From: a virus
IMG/VR virus record: IMGVR_UViG_3300017781_000035
Span: 1 to 39,935 of that record
DNA length: 39,935 nucleotides
Reading direction: 5' to 3' (one strand)
Positions 24,439 through 39,935 of the stretch are shown here, piece after piece (the first letter of the stretch is position 1; each line of letters begins with the position of its first letter). The notes under the pieces are model-generated. The model had not been told where the DNA came from. It saw only the letters and a program-made list of their open reading frames with translations, and searched no databases. The position numbers and the translations under genes are program-made.

Positions 24439-25578
24439 TTATACAATGTTCATTGTAATTTTTCTATCATTAACATTCACACTACCAATCTTAACATTAA
24501 TAATATCCCCTTTTGCAATTTCTCGGTTCTTTAGTTTTGATTTATGAACTAAACCACTTATACCTTTTTCTAATTCTACAAAGGCACCATAAGAAGTTAA
24601 TTTAGTTACTTTTCCTTCAGTAACCATCATAGGTTTATATTTCTCATCTGCACCATCCCATAAATCAATTTTAGGACCTAACTGACTTAATATGATTTTC
24701 CTATCAGTAATAATTTCTTTAGTCCAAAATTTAATTTCATCGCCAGGTTTAATACTTTTATCATTTAAAGCATTTTGATATTCTTCACTTAATTCAGCCT
24801 TAGGAATTAACCCAGTTAAACATTCGTCAAATTCAGCAAATACCCCAAACTTAGTAGTACCTGTAACAAAACCAACTTTTTCTTCTTTAATATTTTCCTT
24901 AAGATTTTCAATAGTAGTAGGAATCATTGTTCTTAAATATTCTCTATGAGAAACTACAACAGTGTCTTTTTCTTTAGAGAATGTAATTGGCATAACAATT
25001 AAATCCTTTCCTACAATAGCATTGAAGTCATGTAATTTATTTAAACCTCCTAATGATCCTGGCATAAAACATTTAATACCTGCAACATCTACCCAATAAC
25101 CACCATGAATTAATTCTTTAACTTTCCCAGTAAAACCTATAGAACTGTTTCCAATAGCATCTTTTATTTCTTTTAACTTAACTTCCATTAAAGCATCAGA
25201 AATTGAAGCGATAACATCACCAGTTTTACTAGTTTTAATTTTTACATCAATTTCCATACCTACCTTTAATTGTTCTACAATATAATCAGGTTCTTTGGTT
25301 AATACACAATAAGCGGTATGTTTTGATTGAATATCAATTAATGCCCTAGTCCTATCTTCTGATATAAAGGATATTTCACCTCTTGTAGTATAGTCAACTT
25401 TATCTTCTGTTAGTTGTGCTTTCTTTAGAGTGGCATCAGTTACACCATACATAGATAATACATCAGGTGCATATGATTCGTTACACATAAGTTTGACTCC
25501 ATGCGGTACTTGTACCTTTACTGTTTTTGTATCAAATGGATCATCACTTAATTGTACGGTAATTTCTTGTTCAATCAT
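24439..25578 (-). CDS. Ribosomal protein S1-like RNA-binding protein with four S1 domains
   Basis: 379 residues. After about 60 residues of N-terminal extension, four OB-fold S1 domains are visible: about 64-128 (GEISFISEDRTRALIDIQS), 148-214 (GKVKELIHGGYWVDVAGIKC, ending VVVSHREYL), 234-300 (GFVTGTTKFGVFAEFDECLT, then GDEIKFWTKEI) and 319-379 (GKVTKLTSYGAFVELEKGIS, then DRKITMNIV). VVVSHREYL matches the VVSRR signature at the end of domain 2 of bacterial bS1, so the protein corresponds to a short bS1 and not to a single-domain factor. Bacterial S1 binds the 30S subunit and mRNA and promotes initiation on structured or SD-poor messages. It lies in a baseplate operon after an 89-bp gap with promoter-like DNA and two palindromes. 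A role in favouring phage mRNA is inferred; RNA-chaperone or packaging roles are possible. Confidence 0.88.
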   Translation of the reverse strand: MIEQEITVQLSDDPFDTKTVKVQVPHGVKLMCNESYAPDVLSMYGVTDATLKKAQLTEDKVDYTTRGEISFISEDRTRALIDIQSKHTAYCVLTKEPDYIVEQLKVGMEIDVKIKTSKTGDVIASISDALMEVKLKEIKDAIGNSSIGFTGKVKELIHGGYWVDVAGIKCFMPGSLGGLNKLHDFNAIVGKDLIVMPITFSKEKDTVVVSHREYLRTMIPTTIENLKENIKEEKVGFVTGTTKFGVFAEFDECLTGLIPKAELSEEYQNALNDKSIKPGDEIKFWTKEIITDRKIILSQLGPKIDLWDGADEKYKPMMVTEGKVTKLTSYGAFVELEKGISGLVHKSKLKNREIAKGDIINVKIGSVNVNDRKITMNIV

Positions 25579-32294: not shown

Positions 32295-32309
32295 TTTTTA
32301 TTATATATT
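32295..32309 (-). promoter_or_regulatory. Promoter-like 14-base AT motif upstream of the baseplate operon
   Basis: The coding strand carries AATATATAATAAAA(A), identical over 14 bases to motifs at 22186-22200 and 33973-33987. It overlaps the stop of the previous gene and lies 17 bases before the ATG of the 595-residue protein. It is probably a phage late promoter, though no -35 element is evident. Confidence 0.5.
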
Positions 32310-32872
32310 TAACTTAAGCTATTTAGATATTTGTCAATGTCAATATCACTCATCATAAACTTATCATAAAATCCTTTCTTAAATCTAGCATCAAATTCTT
32401 TAACACTATCTAAAGAGAGTGGACCTTTAAAAAATGGTCTTGCAGAAATTTCTTTTATTTCTTTTAGGTTTTTAGAAATCATGTAAAACTGAACCTTTTC
32501 AAAAAGCTTAGATAAACTAACTTTAGTTTTAGTACACATAACTGATTCTACTACAACATAAAATCTTTCTCTATCTTTTTCATTTAGTCTTTCTTCTAAT
32601 GATCTAACGGTTTTATAATCCTTTGCTTTAAGAATCATTTTTCTAGCTCGGTTTTCAAACACATGCCTAAAATTCATATCAAAAAAATGTTGCTTTATGA
32701 ATTTCATATTATCATAAAACTTAATAATCCTAATTTGATATAAAGGATTAACTGGATCCCACTTGGAATCTAAGATCTTACCTTTAACTGGTAATAAAAT
32801 GTTTGGGTTAGTATGTGATGCTAATAAACAATATACTATTTGTCCTTTGTCGAATATTCTATGGGCTTTCAT
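32309..32872 (-). CDS. Basic protein of unknown function
   Basis: 187 residues, strongly basic and aromatic. An N-terminal beta region (GQIVYCLLASHTNPNILLPV, then YQIRIIKFYDNMKFIKQHFF) is followed by helices rich in Lys and Arg (NRARKMILKAKDYKTVRSLE) and a C-terminal helix with DIDIDKYLNSL. There is no signal peptide or membrane segment. Its ATG overlaps the TGA of the upstream gene (ATGA), so translation is probably coupled. The charge suggests nucleic-acid or acidic-partner binding, but I recognise no family. It is the last of five small unknown genes ahead of the baseplate operon. Confidence 0.7.
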   Translation of the reverse strand: MKAHRIFDKGQIVYCLLASHTNPNILLPVKGKILDSKWDPVNPLYQIRIIKFYDNMKFIKQHFFDMNFRHVFENRARKMILKAKDYKTVRSLEERLNEKDRERFYVVVESVMCTKTKVSLSKLFEKVQFYMISKNLKEIKEISARPFFKGPLSLDSVKEFDARFKKGFYDKFMMSDIDIDKYLNSLS

Positions 32873-33258
32873 TCAAACTCTATTATGTCATCGAATAACT
32901 CAGCAGTACCGTTGACTATAATATCAGGTGAATGATAAATTTTATATGTAATAGGTTTGTTTGATAATGTGGATACGTATTCTTTTATCCCACCAACAGT
33001 CTCAGTTGTCAAACTACCTAAAACATAAAAGATAGTAGTTGAGGTATTACGACCTATTGCATTTTGTAACTGTCTCATTAAATATGAAGAGACTACTGCA
33101 TCAGATGGTTCGTATTGATAAAAATCATTCTTGGTGAGTTTATTGAAAATATCCATATAATTTATACACTCAATACTTCTAGGAACATTTCCTAAAAATG
33201 TTTTAACACGTAATGCATCATTGGAGTATATAAAGTTAAATTCTATATGTTCTTCCAT
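32869..33258 (-). CDS. Small protein of unknown function
   Basis: 129 residues, acidic at both ends (MEEHIEFNF; ELFDDIIEFE). The centre has an alpha/beta look (SSYLMRQLQNAIGRNTSTTI, then FYVLGSLTTETVGGIKEYVS) with alternating strands and helices; the segment TTIFYVLGSL could be a buried strand. No catalytic motif is clear. It overlaps both neighbours: its start lies within the end of the 109-residue gene, and its TGA overlaps the next ATG. This coupling suggests a common function in the five-gene block. No family recognised. Confidence 0.7.
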   Translation of the reverse strand: MEEHIEFNFIYSNDALRVKTFLGNVPRSIECINYMDIFNKLTKNDFYQYEPSDAVVSSYLMRQLQNAIGRNTSTTIFYVLGSLTTETVGGIKEYVSTLSNKPITYKIYHSPDIIVNGTAELFDDIIEFE

Positions 33259-34004: not shown

Positions 34005-34553
34005 CTATTCTCCTTTGTACTTGCTCTCAATTAATGATTGTACACTGTTATGTAAACAGCTTAATATTTCATCTTCAGATAATTGATCTAAAATAAATGA
34101 CTGTAATACATCATTAACTTCATTCTTATCAAAAGAAGTACTCATTAATTCATAAACATCTTTTTGAGGAATGTTTATTGGAAATTCTAAAAGAAGCTTT
34201 ACTTTATTATTTTTCTTTTGTTTATTAAATAAAACTCTAATAGGAGATGGTGTATCTATCTGAGGAATGTTAACATTTTCATTTTTACTTTTCGGAGTTG
34301 CGCTAACATTTAAAGGATCTATACCTGATGATTCGGTTTTTACAAATTCACCAGCAATATCTGAATCTAATTGTTGTATGTATTCGGATTTTAAATCTTT
34401 AGATAATCTACCACCTTCGTTAAAATGAATCCATTGATCATCCTCTTCTTTAATAGTAACAACCAATCCTGAATCGTCTCCTTTAATCCATTGATAATAA
34501 GTCTTTTCTATAACCTCGGTTTTCGAAAGATCTTCTGTTTTATTTTTTTGCAT
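34005..34553 (-). CDS. Acidic protein of unknown function
   Basis: 182 residues. The N-terminal 65 residues (YYQWIKGDDSGLVVTIKEED, then WIHFNEGGRLSKDL) form a small beta-rich domain with conserved-looking Trp residues. The middle, about residues 75-105, is a Ser/Pro/Asn-rich linker. The C-terminal 75 residues (VKLLLEFPINIPQKDVYELM, then FILDQLSEDEILSCLHNSVQ) form a helical domain. The layout of two folded parts joined by a linker suggests an adaptor or chaperone. It begins the five-gene unknown block, just after the second fibre cassette, and has an inverted repeat in its leader. I recognise no family. Confidence 0.68.
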   Translation of the reverse strand: MQKNKTEDLSKTEVIEKTYYQWIKGDDSGLVVTIKEEDDQWIHFNEGGRLSKDLKSEYIQQLDSDIAGEFVKTESSGIDPLNVSATPKSKNENVNIPQIDTPSPIRVLFNKQKKNNKVKLLLEFPINIPQKDVYELMSTSFDKNEVNDVLQSFILDQLSEDEILSCLHNSVQSLIESKYKGE

Positions 34554-34559
34554 TATTGT

Positions 34560-34592
34560 CTATTTATTATTATACCTGAAAAAAGTAAATAG
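34560..34592 (-). promoter_or_regulatory. 7-bp inverted repeat enclosing a TATAATAA box
   Basis: On the coding strand, CTATTTA (34592-34586) and TAAATAG (34566-34560) are perfect reverse complements around a 19-base spacer with TATAATAA, six bases before the ATG. The arms are AT-rich and only 7 bp, so chance is a reasonable explanation. The layout matches the repeats at 8786-8824 and 24401-24433. Confidence 0.35.
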
Positions 34593-34593
34593 T

Positions 34594-34887
34594 TTAAAAG
34601 TTAGATTCTTCATTCCCATCATCATCTGTACTTACAGTAGAATTATAACTACTTATAAGAAAAGGATCATTTGTTAGCGTTCCAACTTTAAGAGTAGATA
34701 GTTCATTATTAAATGCTGCAAAAGATGTGTAAGTATTTATTAATGCGGCATTAACATTTATTTCAAGAGTTCTTGTACTTAAGCCCCCGCCCATAGGTCC
34801 TGCACAAACATAATTACTAAATGTATTTTTAACATCATTTGTGTATATAATATAATATGAATTTACTGAAGGTTCAAATGTTGCCAT
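34594..34887 (-). CDS. Small partner protein of the second BspA-like fibre cassette
   Basis: 97 residues. It resembles the 79-residue protein at 36278-36517: a Tyr-rich start with YYIIYTNDVKNTF (there DYIVVYTDSKKATY), then TYTSFAAFNNELSTL (there SYATLETYNAEMVSL), then LTNDPF (there LAVDPF). Each lies directly after a BspA-like fibre gene. It is mostly beta in character with an acidic C-terminal tail (STDDDGNEESNF). Pairing with a fibre gene twice points to a fibre chaperone, cap or small fibre subunit. The family is not recognised; the paralogy is read by eye. Confidence 0.68.
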   Translation of the reverse strand: MATFEPSVNSYYIIYTNDVKNTFSNYVCAGPMGGGLSTRTLEINVNAALINTYTSFAAFNNELSTLKVGTLTNDPFLISSYNSTVSTDDDGNEESNF

Positions 34888-34901
34888 TACTATTTTTTAT
34901 T

Positions 34902-36266
34902 TTATACGCCGCCTCCGTCATTGATGGCGCCCCATTTAGTTATTAATGAATTACGAGCATTGATTACCGAATTACCTGGTGATGTTAAAGAATATTGACT
35001 ATCCCCAAAATCTACAACCCTAACACCTGGCCAACTAGGGTAAGTGTAATTATCCCATGCAATTAATAAAGCATCGTAATTGGCCGTAGATAGTTTAAAG
35101 TTACCTGTTGATTGTGTTAATGGTGGAAATCCAAAACTACCTTGAGACCATGCACTTACATCCCAATTACTTAAATTTTGATCAAATGAATCAGCAGCAG
35201 TAAACATTCCTCTCATATCAATTACACTTGAGGTATCCCATGCTCCAATAGGTTGATTAAATATCGTAGGTTGAACTGCTACAGTTGCAGAAAACATTTG
35301 ACTCATGTTTGTTACGTTTGATGTATCCCACCCACTAATGTCTCTATTAAAAAGTCTAGCTCCTTTAAACATACTATTACAATTTGTAACTTTACCAAAA
35401 TCTGAACCCCAATTATCAATGGTTGAGGAAGATGCATTATTAAAATTAGCAGCTCCATCAAACATAGCAAAACAATTAACTGAAAGAACTGTTGCTGCTG
35501 TACCAAAACTACTCCACATTTTAAAATTAGCCTTTGTCACATTTCGAAACATTGTGTAAAATGTATTAACTCTACTCACATCCCAATTCTGAAAGTCCAT
35601 TCCACCGGTGGCCATATCACCATACAATAAATTATTGCAACCATTAAAGAAACCATGTAAGCTTTTTGTCATACCTACATTCCAATCAGCAAGCTTACTT
35701 ATTCTTACTAAGTTAGTAGCTTCCGTTAAAAATCCATAAGTACCATATATTACTTGTCCAAAACTATTAGGCCCAAACCCTGGTAAAAAATTAAAGGTTG
35801 GTGTATCAGTAGCTTCTATAGCTGATAAATTGGTACAGCCTCTAAATACTTGACCACGACCAATAACACCACTTACATTAGCACCACCAGTAATATTTAA
35901 ATCACCCCACTGAAGAATTTTTATAACCTTTGCAGCATCACCTCTACCTGCAACACCACCACTATAAGAAAGGCCCCAAAAATTAAATCCTGCTATATTA
36001 CCTTCAGCAGATACAGTATAAACACCAGATGAAGAATAAGTATGAGTACATGCAGTAAGGTAATTAGTAGAATCAACATCAGATGTAGTACCGTCTCCCC
36101 AACTAATTTGAAAATTTATAACATATCAAAAATAATCTGTACCATTATAAATAGGAAAAACAAATTGATTATTTGCTGAAGTTTTAGGACCAGTTTTTGT
36201 AGTATCAATTTCCATCTTAAATGGGCCTCTACCACTAGGTCTTCTACCTGAAATTATTTTTCTCAT
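34902..36266 (-). CDS. BspA-like leucine-rich fibre protein, interrupted by one in-frame TGA
   Basis: From ATG at 36266 the frame runs 455 codons to TAA with a single TGA at codon 47 (36126-36128). The N-terminus MRKIISGRRPSG is nearly identical to the paralogue at 36528-37790 (MRKIISGRRPTG), and after the TGA the WGDG motif of a PKD-like domain continues in frame. A first domain with SWGDGTTS is followed by DUF285/BspA-type repeats (for example FNRDISGWDTSNVTNMSQMF; FNQPIGAWDTSSVIDMRGMF; FDQNLSNWDVSAWSQG). These LRRs form curved binding surfaces and suit a receptor-binding fibre. The next in-frame ATG is only at codon 199, so the annotated part from 35672 alone would lose the tail-docking end. 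The TGA may be a sequencing error, nonsense mutation or readthrough site. The apparent 256-residue product is a fragment. Confidence 0.78.
36126..36128 (-). other. In-frame TGA at codon 47 of the second BspA-like gene
   Basis: The codon reads TTT TGA TAT on the coding strand. In an ungapped alignment with the paralogue it falls opposite a Gly codon just before the WGDG motif. A single substitution from TGG (Trp) or GGA (Gly) would create it. TGA is a true stop elsewhere in the window: the genes at 826-1062 and 32869-33258 end in TGA within ATGA overlaps. Confidence 0.9.
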
Positions 36267-36277
36267 CCTTTTTATTT

Positions 36278-36517
36278 TTATTCTCCTGACTCTGGCTGGA
36301 ATCCAAATGGATCAACAGCCAACGTAGGCTGCCCTAAGCTAACCATCTCTGCATTATAAGTTTCTAAAGTAGCATAACTATTAAAAGCTAAACCATCGTT
36401 TATAGTTATATATGATTTTGGATTTCCAAATGCTGAAAATAAATATGTAGCTTTTTTAGAATCAGTATAAACTACTATATAATCATCTCTTAATGGTATA
36501 ATATCTGTTGCTGCCAT
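36278..36517 (-). CDS. Small partner protein of the first BspA-like fibre cassette
   Basis: 79 residues, related by eye to the 97-residue protein at 34594-34887 (DYIVVYTDSKKATY; SYATLETYNAEMVSL; LAVDPF). It starts 10 bases after the BspA-like gene, with ATATAAATAATAAAA, containing a T4-late-like TATAAATA, between the genes. No membrane segment or catalytic motif is seen. The repeated pairing with a fibre gene suggests a dedicated chaperone or capping subunit. It lacks the acidic tail of its paralogue and has a Gly-rich insert missing. Confidence 0.68.
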   Translation of the reverse strand: MAATDIIPLRDDYIVVYTDSKKATYLFSAFGNPKSYITINDGLAFNSYATLETYNAEMVSLGQPTLAVDPFGFQPESGE

Positions 36518-36527
36518 ATTTTATTAT

Positions 36528-37790
36528 TTATATTGGTCCTCCATCTTCTATACCACCAAACTTAGTTACTAAAGATGCTCTTGCTGTAGCGGCTGCTGAT
36601 GGTGAAGCCGAATATTTACTTAAACCAAATCCTATAGTTGAAGTTGGCAAAGAAGGGTATGTAACTGTATCTAAGGCAATAAGTAATGCATCATAATTAG
36701 CTGTACTTAATACCATAGGAAATGTAAAGCTATTTGATATAGAGGTACATAGTGGTACTTGACTTCCACCTTGATTAGTATTTACAGCAGTTAAATCCCA
36801 GTTACTTAAATCTTGATCCAAGTTATTACAATTTCTCATTATTCCATTCATATTAGTTACATTCGATGTATCCCAACTACCAATCGGTTGATTAAATGCC
36901 ATTGGATCATTCATTCCATTAAACAGACTACTCATATTAGTTACACTTGATGTATCCCAAGAACTAATGTCTCTATCAAATTTATAAGCCCTACTAAAAG
37001 TTTGAAGCATTGTAGTTACATTAGATGTATCCCAGCTTTCTATACTAAAAGTTCCTCCATTATTAAACTCATCACAACCCAAAAACATAGCCTCAATACT
37101 ATTAGTGGAATTAGTTAATGTAAACATTTTTGCATTCAATTGCTGGCAATTAAAAAACATATAAGCCGTGCTAATAAAGTTACTTACATCCCAACTAGAA
37201 AGATTAATTGCCCCAGTAGACAAATCTCCATATTGCAATTTCTGGCAATTAAAAAACATTGAATAACCTGTATTAAGGGTCGTAACATTCCACTCAGCTA
37301 TTCTATTAATTCTTTCTAATGCTACGCAACCAGTAAACGTATTAAAGCCTGCGTCATTCAATTCAAAATAAGGTAAATCTGGACAAATTATTTGTACAAG
37401 TTCACTACAACCTGAAAATGCTCTGTTTTCACTGAATATAAAATCTCCCCATTCTTCAATAGATATAACTTTTACAGCATCATCACTACCTGAGCTCATT
37501 ACACCAAATTCCCAACCTCTAATAGCTCCTCTAATTTGTATTAAATAAGTACCTGTACTTGAATAAATATGAAGTCTTGCTATATTAAAATTCGCACTAT
37601 TTAATTCTGTAGTACTACCATCACCCCAATCTATAGACATGGACATCGCTCCACCACTTGCTGGAGAACTTGTATTAAAAGGCAATATCATTCTTGTATT
37701 ACTACTACTTCCTGATGATGACTTAGAAAGGTCAACCCTAAATTTAAAGGCTGCACCAGTTGGTCTTCTACCTGAAATTATCTTTCTCAT
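36528..37790 (-). CDS. BspA-like (DUF285-type) leucine-rich tail-fibre protein
   Basis: 420 residues. The N-terminus MRKIISGRRPTGAAFKFRVD is shared with the downstream paralogue and probably docks to the tail or baseplate. Residues about 50-60 carry IDWGDGSTTEL, the WGDG turn of PKD-like domains. From about residue 175 come BspA/DUF285 repeats with the signature FNQPIGSWDTSNVTNMNGIM, FDRDISSWDTSSVTNMSSLF and LDQDLSNWD. The C-terminal part (LSTANYDALLIALDTVTYPS, then RASLVTKFGGIEDGGPI) is also seen in the paralogue (LSTANYDALLIAWDNYTYPS). BspA-type LRRs are known in host-binding proteins of Bacteroidota and mycoplasmas. In a phage tail cluster a receptor-binding role is likely. It starts 15 bases after the collagen-like gene. 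Confident in the fold, less in the role. Confidence 0.85.
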   Translation of the reverse strand: MRKIISGRRPTGAAFKFRVDLSKSSSGSSSNTRMILPFNTSSPASGGAMSMSIDWGDGSTTELNSANFNIARLHIYSSTGTYLIQIRGAIRGWEFGVMSSGSDDAVKVISIEEWGDFIFSENRAFSGCSELVQIICPDLPYFELNDAGFNTFTGCVALERINRIAEWNVTTLNTGYSMFFNCQKLQYGDLSTGAINLSSWDVSNFISTAYMFFNCQQLNAKMFTLTNSTNSIEAMFLGCDEFNNGGTFSIESWDTSNVTTMLQTFSRAYKFDRDISSWDTSSVTNMSSLFNGMNDPMAFNQPIGSWDTSNVTNMNGIMRNCNNLDQDLSNWDLTAVNTNQGGSQVPLCTSISNSFTFPMVLSTANYDALLIALDTVTYPSLPTSTIGFGLSKYSASPSAAATARASLVTKFGGIEDGGPI

Positions 37791-37805
37791 AGAAAATAAT
37801 TATTA

Positions 37806-39935
37806 TTAAGGTGCTATTTGTTCAAACCAATATTGAGTTGCATTACCATTAAATTGAATAGTCATATACATATCAGTATTTAGTAACCATGTATCACCTT
37901 TAATTAAAGTTGCACCAGTAACAGATGGTTGAGATGCAGTATTGATAAGTATTCTTCCAAATCCTCCAACTATTGCTGTACCGGCAGCATTATTAGTAAA
38001 TGCATATGTTGTAGTAGCATTCGCACCAGCCATATTACAATAATTACCTAAAGGATAACCAATTTCCACTGTGGCTCCTGTATTAACTGTAGTGTTACCC
38101 ATTAGATCTTGTAGAAGTATTTTAGTACCATCACTAAAATACGCTTGCGGATATATGTTAGCTGCAACACCGCCTCCACCACTTGTTGTTACTTTACTCG
38201 TAGAAGTAAAAGTTATATCATCACCAGCAGAAACTGCTATATTAGTTCCACCTGTAGTATTACCTATTAATAAGGTTGCATCTAAAGCATTATTTGGTCC
38301 TTGAGGTCCTTGTGGTCCTTGTGGTCCCTGTTGTCCAGTTGGTCCTTGTGGTCCTTGTGGTCCTGTGTTACCCTGACTACCTTGTGGTCCTTGTGGTCCT
38401 TGTGGTCCAGTATTTCCTTGTCCACCTTGTGGTCCTTGTGGTCCTTGTGGTCCTGTGTTACCCTGACTACCTTGTGGACCCTGTGGTCCTTGTTGACCTG
38501 TCGGTCCTTGTGGTCCTTGTTGGCCTGTTGCACCTTGTGGTCCTTGTGGCCCCTGTGCTCCAGTTATACCTTGTGGTCCTTGTGGTCCTTGTTGGCCAGT
38601 ACTACCTTGTGGTCCTTGTGGTCCTTGTTGACCTGTTGAACCCTGTGGTCCTTGTGGGCCTTGTTGACCTGTTGGACCTTGAGGTCCTTGTTGCCCTACA
38701 GCACCCTGAGGTCCTTGTGGACCTTGTGCTCCAGTTATACCTTGTGGCCCTTGTGGTCCTTGTGGTCCTTGAGCCCCTGTACCTTGAGGTCCTTGTGGAC
38801 CTTGTTGACCAGTACTACCTTGTGGTCCTTGTGGTCCTTGTGCTCCTGCACCTTGTGGTCCTTGTTGACCTGTTGCACCTTGTGGTCCTTGTGGTCCTTG
38901 TGGTCCTTGTGCTCCTGCACCTTGAGGTCCTTGTGGTCCTTGTTGACCAGTACTACCTTGCGGTCCTTGAGGTCCTTGTTGCCCAGTACTACCTTGTGGA
39001 CCTTGTGGACCTTGTGGTCCTTGTTGACCAGTACTACCTTGTGGACCTTGTGGTCCTTGTTGACCAGTACTACCTTGTGGACCTTGTGGACCTTGTGGTC
39101 CTTGTTGCCCAGTACTACCTTGTGGTCCTTGTGGCCCTTGAGCCCCAGCTCCTTGTGGTCCTTGGGCACCGGTAGCTCCTTGTGGACCTTGTGGTCCTTG
39201 TTGACCAGTACTACCTTGTGGACCTTGTGGTCCTTGTGGTCCTTGTTGACCGGTACCACCTTGTGGACCTTGTGGTCCTTGTGCACCTGTACCTTGTGGA
39301 CCTTGTGGTCCTTGCGGGCCTTGTTGTCCAGTACTACCTTGTGGTCCCTGTGGACCTTGTGCACCTGTACCTTGTGGACCTTGTGGTCCCTGTGGGCCTT
39401 GTTGTCCAGTACTACCTTGTGGTCCCTGTGGACCTTGTGCTCCAGTTCCTTGTGGTCCCTGAGGTCCTTGTGGACCTTGTTGACCTTGTGGACCTTGTGG
39501 CCCTTGAGCCCCAGTACCTTGTGGTCCTTGTGGTCCTTGTGGACCTTGCTGACCTTGTGGTCCTTGTGGCCCTTGTGCACCTGCACCTTGTGGTCCCTGT
39601 GGACCTTGAACTCCTTGTGGTCCTTGTGGACCTTGGGCTCCAGCTCCTTGTGGTCCCTGAGGTCCTTGAGGTCCCTGTTGACCAGTATCTCCTTGTGGAC
39701 CTTGTGGACCTTGGGCTCCAGCTCCTTGTGGTCCTTGCGGTCCTTGTGGACCTTGTTGACCAGTATCTCCTTGTGGACCTTGTGGTCCTTGTGCACCTGC
39801 ACCCTGTGGTCCTTGCGGTCCTTGGACTCCTTGTGGACCTTGTGGTCCTTGGGCTCCAGCTCCTTGTGGTCCTTGTGGTCCTTGTGGTCCTTGTTGACCA
39901 GTATCTCCTTGTGGACCTTGCGGTCCTTGGGCTCC
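37806..39935 (-). CDS. Collagen-like fibre protein, 5' end outside the window
   Basis: The Gly-X-Y frame (mostly GPQ) is open from 39935 to a TAA at 37806, giving 709 visible residues with no start codon. About 548 residues are collagen-like, then a 160-residue C-terminal domain ([20 protein letters not shown] ... [20 protein letters not shown], ending WFEQIAP) probably forms a trimeric beta tip. A start at 38102 would give a 98-residue fragment, but it is in frame with the collagen part and is not a separate gene. Triple helices of this kind form stalks in phage fibres. The stalk is nearly uncharged. Long repeats make its length in an assembly uncertain. The gene heads the fibre cluster in the transcription direction. 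The frame is certain, and the fibre role is well supported by context. Confidence 0.9.
38295..39935 (-). repeat. Collagen-like Gly-X-Y DNA repeat with recurring Gly-X-Gly breaks
   Basis: Nine-base units encode Gly-Pro-Gln, with GQQ, GST, GDT and GAQ variants, running past the right edge of the window. I count 13 places where the pattern shortens to G-[A/T]-G-A-Q, most 50-80 bases apart. They shift the glycine register as expected, so the reading frame itself stays open. Synonymous third positions vary. Other frames are also open but are artefacts of the repeat. Confidence 0.9.

Follow-up and report, generated by a model that had tools for sequence, protein, structure and literature searches.

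Our analysis argues that a large phage of Bacteroidota type carries two receptor-binding-type adhesin genes, one of which was most likely inactivated by a real and recent nonsense substitution. The interrupted frame lies in the 39,935-nucleotide stretch of IMG/VR record IMGVR_UViG_3300017781_000035 analysed here as a whole (hereafter 'the window'). Its minus strand translates from position 36266 to position 34902 as 455 codons that begin with ATG, end with TAA and contain one internal stop, a TGA at codon 47 (36128-36126), which is the single internal stop among the genes listed across the window. The features of the locus, all encoded on the minus strand, are the following.

34005..34553, minus strand: conserved downstream gene g182 (182 aa), bounding the variable adhesin locus on its far side
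34594..34887, minus strand: cassette 2 small protein, 97 aa, intact; a distant relative of the small protein that follows the fibre in relatives
34902..36266, minus strand: cassette 2 putative adhesin/fibre gene, 455-codon frame with TGA at codon 47; WGDG/PKD-like domain followed by DUF285 repeats
34902..35672, minus strand: longest post-stop open frame initiated by ATG, GTG or TTG, 256 aa, from the ATG at codon 199; without the N-terminal motif and domain
36126..36128, minus strand: in-frame TGA (codon 47) at the end of a run of five T's, with T as the downstream base; the aligned column of intact homologues is glycine
36129..36266, minus strand: all that would be translated with an effective stop: 46 residues, comprising the MRKIISGRRP motif plus the initial strands of the N-terminal beta domain
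36278..36517, minus strand: cassette 1 small protein, 79 aa, nearest to that of relative L032 (47%)
36528..37790, minus strand: cassette 1 putative adhesin/fibre gene, intact, 420 aa, nearest to that of L032
37806..39935, minus strand: collagen-like repeat gene, running off the window end; its tail precedes the adhesin cassette in relatives as well

The TGA-split frame is real in the given sequence, since shuffling of the 407 post-stop codons yields a mean of 31 stops and never fewer than 19, and since only frame 0 scores as coding (+0.43 bits per codon, with -1.3 and -2.0 for the other frames; the intact paralogue behaves similarly). An open post-stop frame arising by chance is excluded. The first-pass annotation had described 455 codons intact save for the TGA, with both flanks of the stop aligning with the paralogue, and both statements are borne out by the translation and by the alignment with the intact gene at 36528-37790 (39-43% identity). 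Internal re-initiation offers no rescue of the complete protein: the first ATG, GTG or TTG after the stop is codon 199, and a start there would drop the N-terminal domain.

The alignment of homologues indicates what the codon may have been. The TGA column is occupied by glycine in all six homologues having a residue there, the seventh, L032, having a gap, and TGA is one substitution away from the glycine codon used by L025 and L026; of the two sense codons proposed earlier for the site, TGG and GGA, it is thus glycine that is seen in homologues, while tryptophan never is. No homologue shares the stop, and none of 101 homologous viral loci has an internal stop in the matched stretch, a test that could miss a stop close to the N-terminus. 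Moreover, the part of the broken gene behind the stop appears free of decay, as judged from invariant alignment columns: 74 of 80 are kept (92.5%), compared with 80 of 89 (90%) in the intact paralogue and 83% in L027 and L032, so that the stop must be either recent or a consensus error. Of 3663 single-base changes, 153 would create a stop, which amounts to an expectation of 51 stops for each neutral substitution per site; the probability of finding no second stop thus drops under 5% once about 0.06 substitutions per site are exceeded. Provided that the gene has been neutral since, the age of the break would be less than about 0.06 neutral substitutions per site at the 95% level.

It is then of importance for the interpretation of the break that the gene has a neighbour of its own kind. 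Relatives were gathered by a scan with the flanking gene at 32309-32872, which gave 37 contigs. In the six relatives that were read across the locus and have such an adhesin (L003, L004, L025, L026, L027 and L032), a single cassette is found, in the order collagen-like gene tail, adhesin, small protein and conserved gene g182, whereas the window alone has two adhesin-plus-small-protein cassettes (34594-37790). A maximum-likelihood tree places the broken adhesin with L003, L004, L025 and L026 (99/95) and the intact adhesin with L032 (100/99); judged by their sequences, the two adhesins are of different descent and not recent duplicates. When aligned with the window at the DNA level, L032 matches in one 1.9-kb block that extends from the collagen tail over adhesin 1 to the small protein of cassette 1, and the alignment then jumps to just before g182. 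Since cassette 2 is skipped, it is extra relative to L032, the closest single-cassette relative. The tandem arrangement of cassettes of different lineages suggests that the second adhesin was gained by recombination.

Most other relatives carry a different long fibre at this locus instead of the PKD/DUF285 adhesin, and the locus between its conserved flanks thus has the appearance of a hypervariable host-binding site. Upstream of the g182 orthologue, many of the relatives L033-L057 have a long fibre of up to about 2100 aa replacing the adhesin cassette, and several of these fibres begin with MATSFN..LQEYILFRTE and contain collagen-like repeats. Long GPQGPQG repeats are likewise seen in the collagen-like gene of the window (38300-39935). 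Over their first 36 bases (36231-36266 and 37755-37790), which encode MRKIISGRRP, the two adhesin genes are 92% identical, far above the remainder of the genes, and this stretch may perhaps represent a virion-anchoring motif or a recombination joint.

A host-binding role of the gene product, as adhesin or fibre, is suggested by its predicted domain content and by its position beside the collagen-like gene. The Pfam family DUF285 (BspA-type leucine-rich repeat, PF03382) matches the post-stop part with 109 bits and the paralogue with 116 bits (gathering cut-off 25), and no Pfam PKD match to the adhesin was obtained, although WGDG is present in the sequence. An AlphaFold2 model built on the read-through protein (mean pLDDT 77; pTM 0.78) predicts an N-terminal beta domain at about residues 16-91, which contains WGDG and is followed by the repeat region; codon 47 is placed between strands 34-36 and 51-55. 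In a fold search of viral models, the matches are PKD-domain proteins and BspA-type leucine-rich repeat proteins of phages (best named match, E 9e-11). PKD domains are also among the matches of the fold search of the PDB, but at E > 1 only, so that none is significant. A PDB sequence search with the adhesin, a DNA search against annotated phages and a literature search on leucine-rich repeat adhesins in huge phages returned, respectively, nothing, nothing and no paper. On the basis of the sequence and fold-search matches, the Synechococcus phage S-SKS1 PKD protein, Sphingomonas phage PAU gp103 and Vibrio phage pir03 share the WGDG/PKD-like domain and/or DUF285 with the adhesin; sequence identity to named phages is, however, only about 23-35%, and the MRKIISGRR motif and the tandem cassettes are particular to the present group.

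The window is probably one piece of a large Bacteroidota phage genome, as indicated by conserved neighbouring genes in common with LR756500, other uncultured huge phages, Prevotella Lak phages, Flavobacterium phage MaF61 and Chryseobacterium phages. Conserved structural proteins are shared with Lak phages, LR756500 and Flavobacterium phage MaF61, and LR756500 also has the flanking gene g187 (46%) and an adhesin homologue. Among the structural genes of the window, the one at 24439-25578 encodes S1 RNA-binding domains (PF00575, 79 bits) and resembles ribosomal protein S1.

We thus suggest the following course of events for a nonsense substitution at codon 47. At a variable adhesin site holding two cassettes of different lineages, a glycine codon of the second adhesin would have been converted to TGA by one substitution. 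Translation would then end inside the first beta domain, with 46 residues completed, and no functional adhesin 2 would be made. This loss would be tolerated because the locus carries two adhesin cassettes where relatives carry one, with the intact adhesin 1 presumably still binding the host; the broken copy may be heading for loss, or may be kept as a recombination reservoir. The break does sit in a redundant gene, and the two adhesins together make up 6.7% of the coding bases. It weighs against a nonsense substitution that the event is unreplicated among the 101 homologous loci and that the contig is a metagenome consensus.

The latter point leads to the most serious competing explanation, a consensus or assembly error in a genome that in truth has a sense codon and makes both adhesins. 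We consider this rather unlikely, yet it deserves careful weighing: a single base adjoining the run of five T's is involved, the source contig stems from a metagenome, the post-stop frame is free of decay, and the stop is common to no homologue. An independent sequence over the site was also not found when a second same-species sequence was sought in IMG/VR with exact 36-mers and peptide patterns, in the L031 record and in GTDB genomes; the best that the IMG/VR and GTDB scans provided for the site are relatives of about 50% identity or less. Contig L031 (IMGVR_UViG_3300017757_000025) is the one contig of the same species that was found, being 99.88% identical over 8640 bp, and stops at window position 32951, 3.2 kb short of the TGA and just before the variable adhesin locus, so that its record is without an adhesin. 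What L031 does offer is an independent measure of accuracy, and it speaks against an error: over the 8640 bp there are 8 differing sites, 5 of them synonymous, and a further difference of two A's in an intergenic A run, from which consensus errors appear to be few. Consistently, no other interrupted gene is found in the 39 kb, and the chance that a random error falls in either of the two redundant adhesin genes is only about 7%.

Far less probable is programmed or leaky UGA readthrough, which would provide a minor full-length adhesin in the manner of the Qbeta coat-A1 pair. The likeness to Qbeta is that a virion protein gene contains an in-frame UGA and stays open behind it, and the intact frame beyond the stop was indeed until recently subject to codon constraint. 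However, the UGA is not conserved, as is evident from the glycine in relatives and the 0 of 101 loci with an internal stop, and the region downstream is devoid of a stem, RNA folding being weaker than in shuffled sequences (z +0.9 and +1.4). Neither an Rfam element nor, within the 40-kb window, a tRNA of any kind, suppressors included, was detected. The Qbeta coat protein is functional by itself; the 46-residue stopped product considered here, in contrast, ends within a domain and is thus a domain fragment. A selenocysteine insertion or readthrough element was rejected on the lack of a stem and of an Rfam match and on the aligned residue being glycine. One may still imagine that low-level readthrough by the host makes the UGA tolerable, with the tandem cassettes serving as a host-range reservoir and a minority of virions displaying adhesin 2 as a form of bet-hedging in receptor choice, to which we would assign only a slim chance.

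Switching is common at fibre loci, and the present locus is highly variable among relatives; nonetheless, a phase-variable switch turning the broken adhesin on and off is most improbable, as inverted repeats are absent from 34300-38200, and a substitution provides no fast reversible switch. One-step slippage in the run of five T's can be discarded as a means of opening the frame: with one T gained or lost, a stop remains within 8 codons, at codon 50 or 55.

That TGA has been reassigned (to Trp, as in code 4, or to Gly, as in code 25), or is suppressed by a phage tRNA in late genes, has next to no credibility, even if related Lak megaphages use a recoded TAG (PMC11210395, PMC8346664) and TGA rarely serves as a stop here, because (i) the genes of the window contain one in-frame TGA as against 132 TGG and 358 GGA codons, (ii) the TGA terminating g129 is conserved in the orthologues of 33 of 39 relatives, and the conserved genes that were checked in relatives are free of in-frame TGA, (iii) extension of the two TGA-ended genes past their stops gives nothing coherent, and (iv) the window is without tRNA. 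Recoding of TGA is hence ruled out by codon counts, by the window's own TGA stops and by stop usage in about 40 relatives, and the group, unlike the TAG-recoding Lak phages, appears to use the standard code. The first-pass annotation had likewise taken TGA to be a stop, used in ATGA overlaps, and reassignment to be unlikely; the former agrees with the 2 of 30 window genes that end in TGA, both in such overlaps, and the latter is well supported by the codon counts, the g129 stop and the missing tRNA. Of the three origins that it had proposed for the break, a recent nonsense mutation emerges as the best, a consensus error retains some probability, and readthrough is unsupported.

A recent nonsense mutation in a fibre gene is not without precedent. 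In the closest parallel that was found, premature stops occur in the ORF133 tail fibre gene of the T5-like phages saus132, poul149 and chee158, and no effect on host specificity was seen (PMC5816814). As in those phages, which are viable, a natural premature stop would affect one of several fibre genes; in contrast to them, being cultured T5-like phages, the phage considered here is an uncultivated one of Bacteroidota type, and its adhesin is of another family. The finding is thus an ordinary one, natural premature stops in fibre genes being already known, while its setting of two differently descended cassettes is mildly interesting.

The split frame also calls for some caution in annotation, as the entry would be divided or misread as a 256-aa gene, and it illustrates that recoding need not be behind a lone in-frame TGA, even when the phage is related to recoded huge ones. 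Finally, the locus would represent a small, clear case of the turnover of phage host-binding genes, in which an adhesin of a second lineage came to adjoin the first and one of the two was then silenced.
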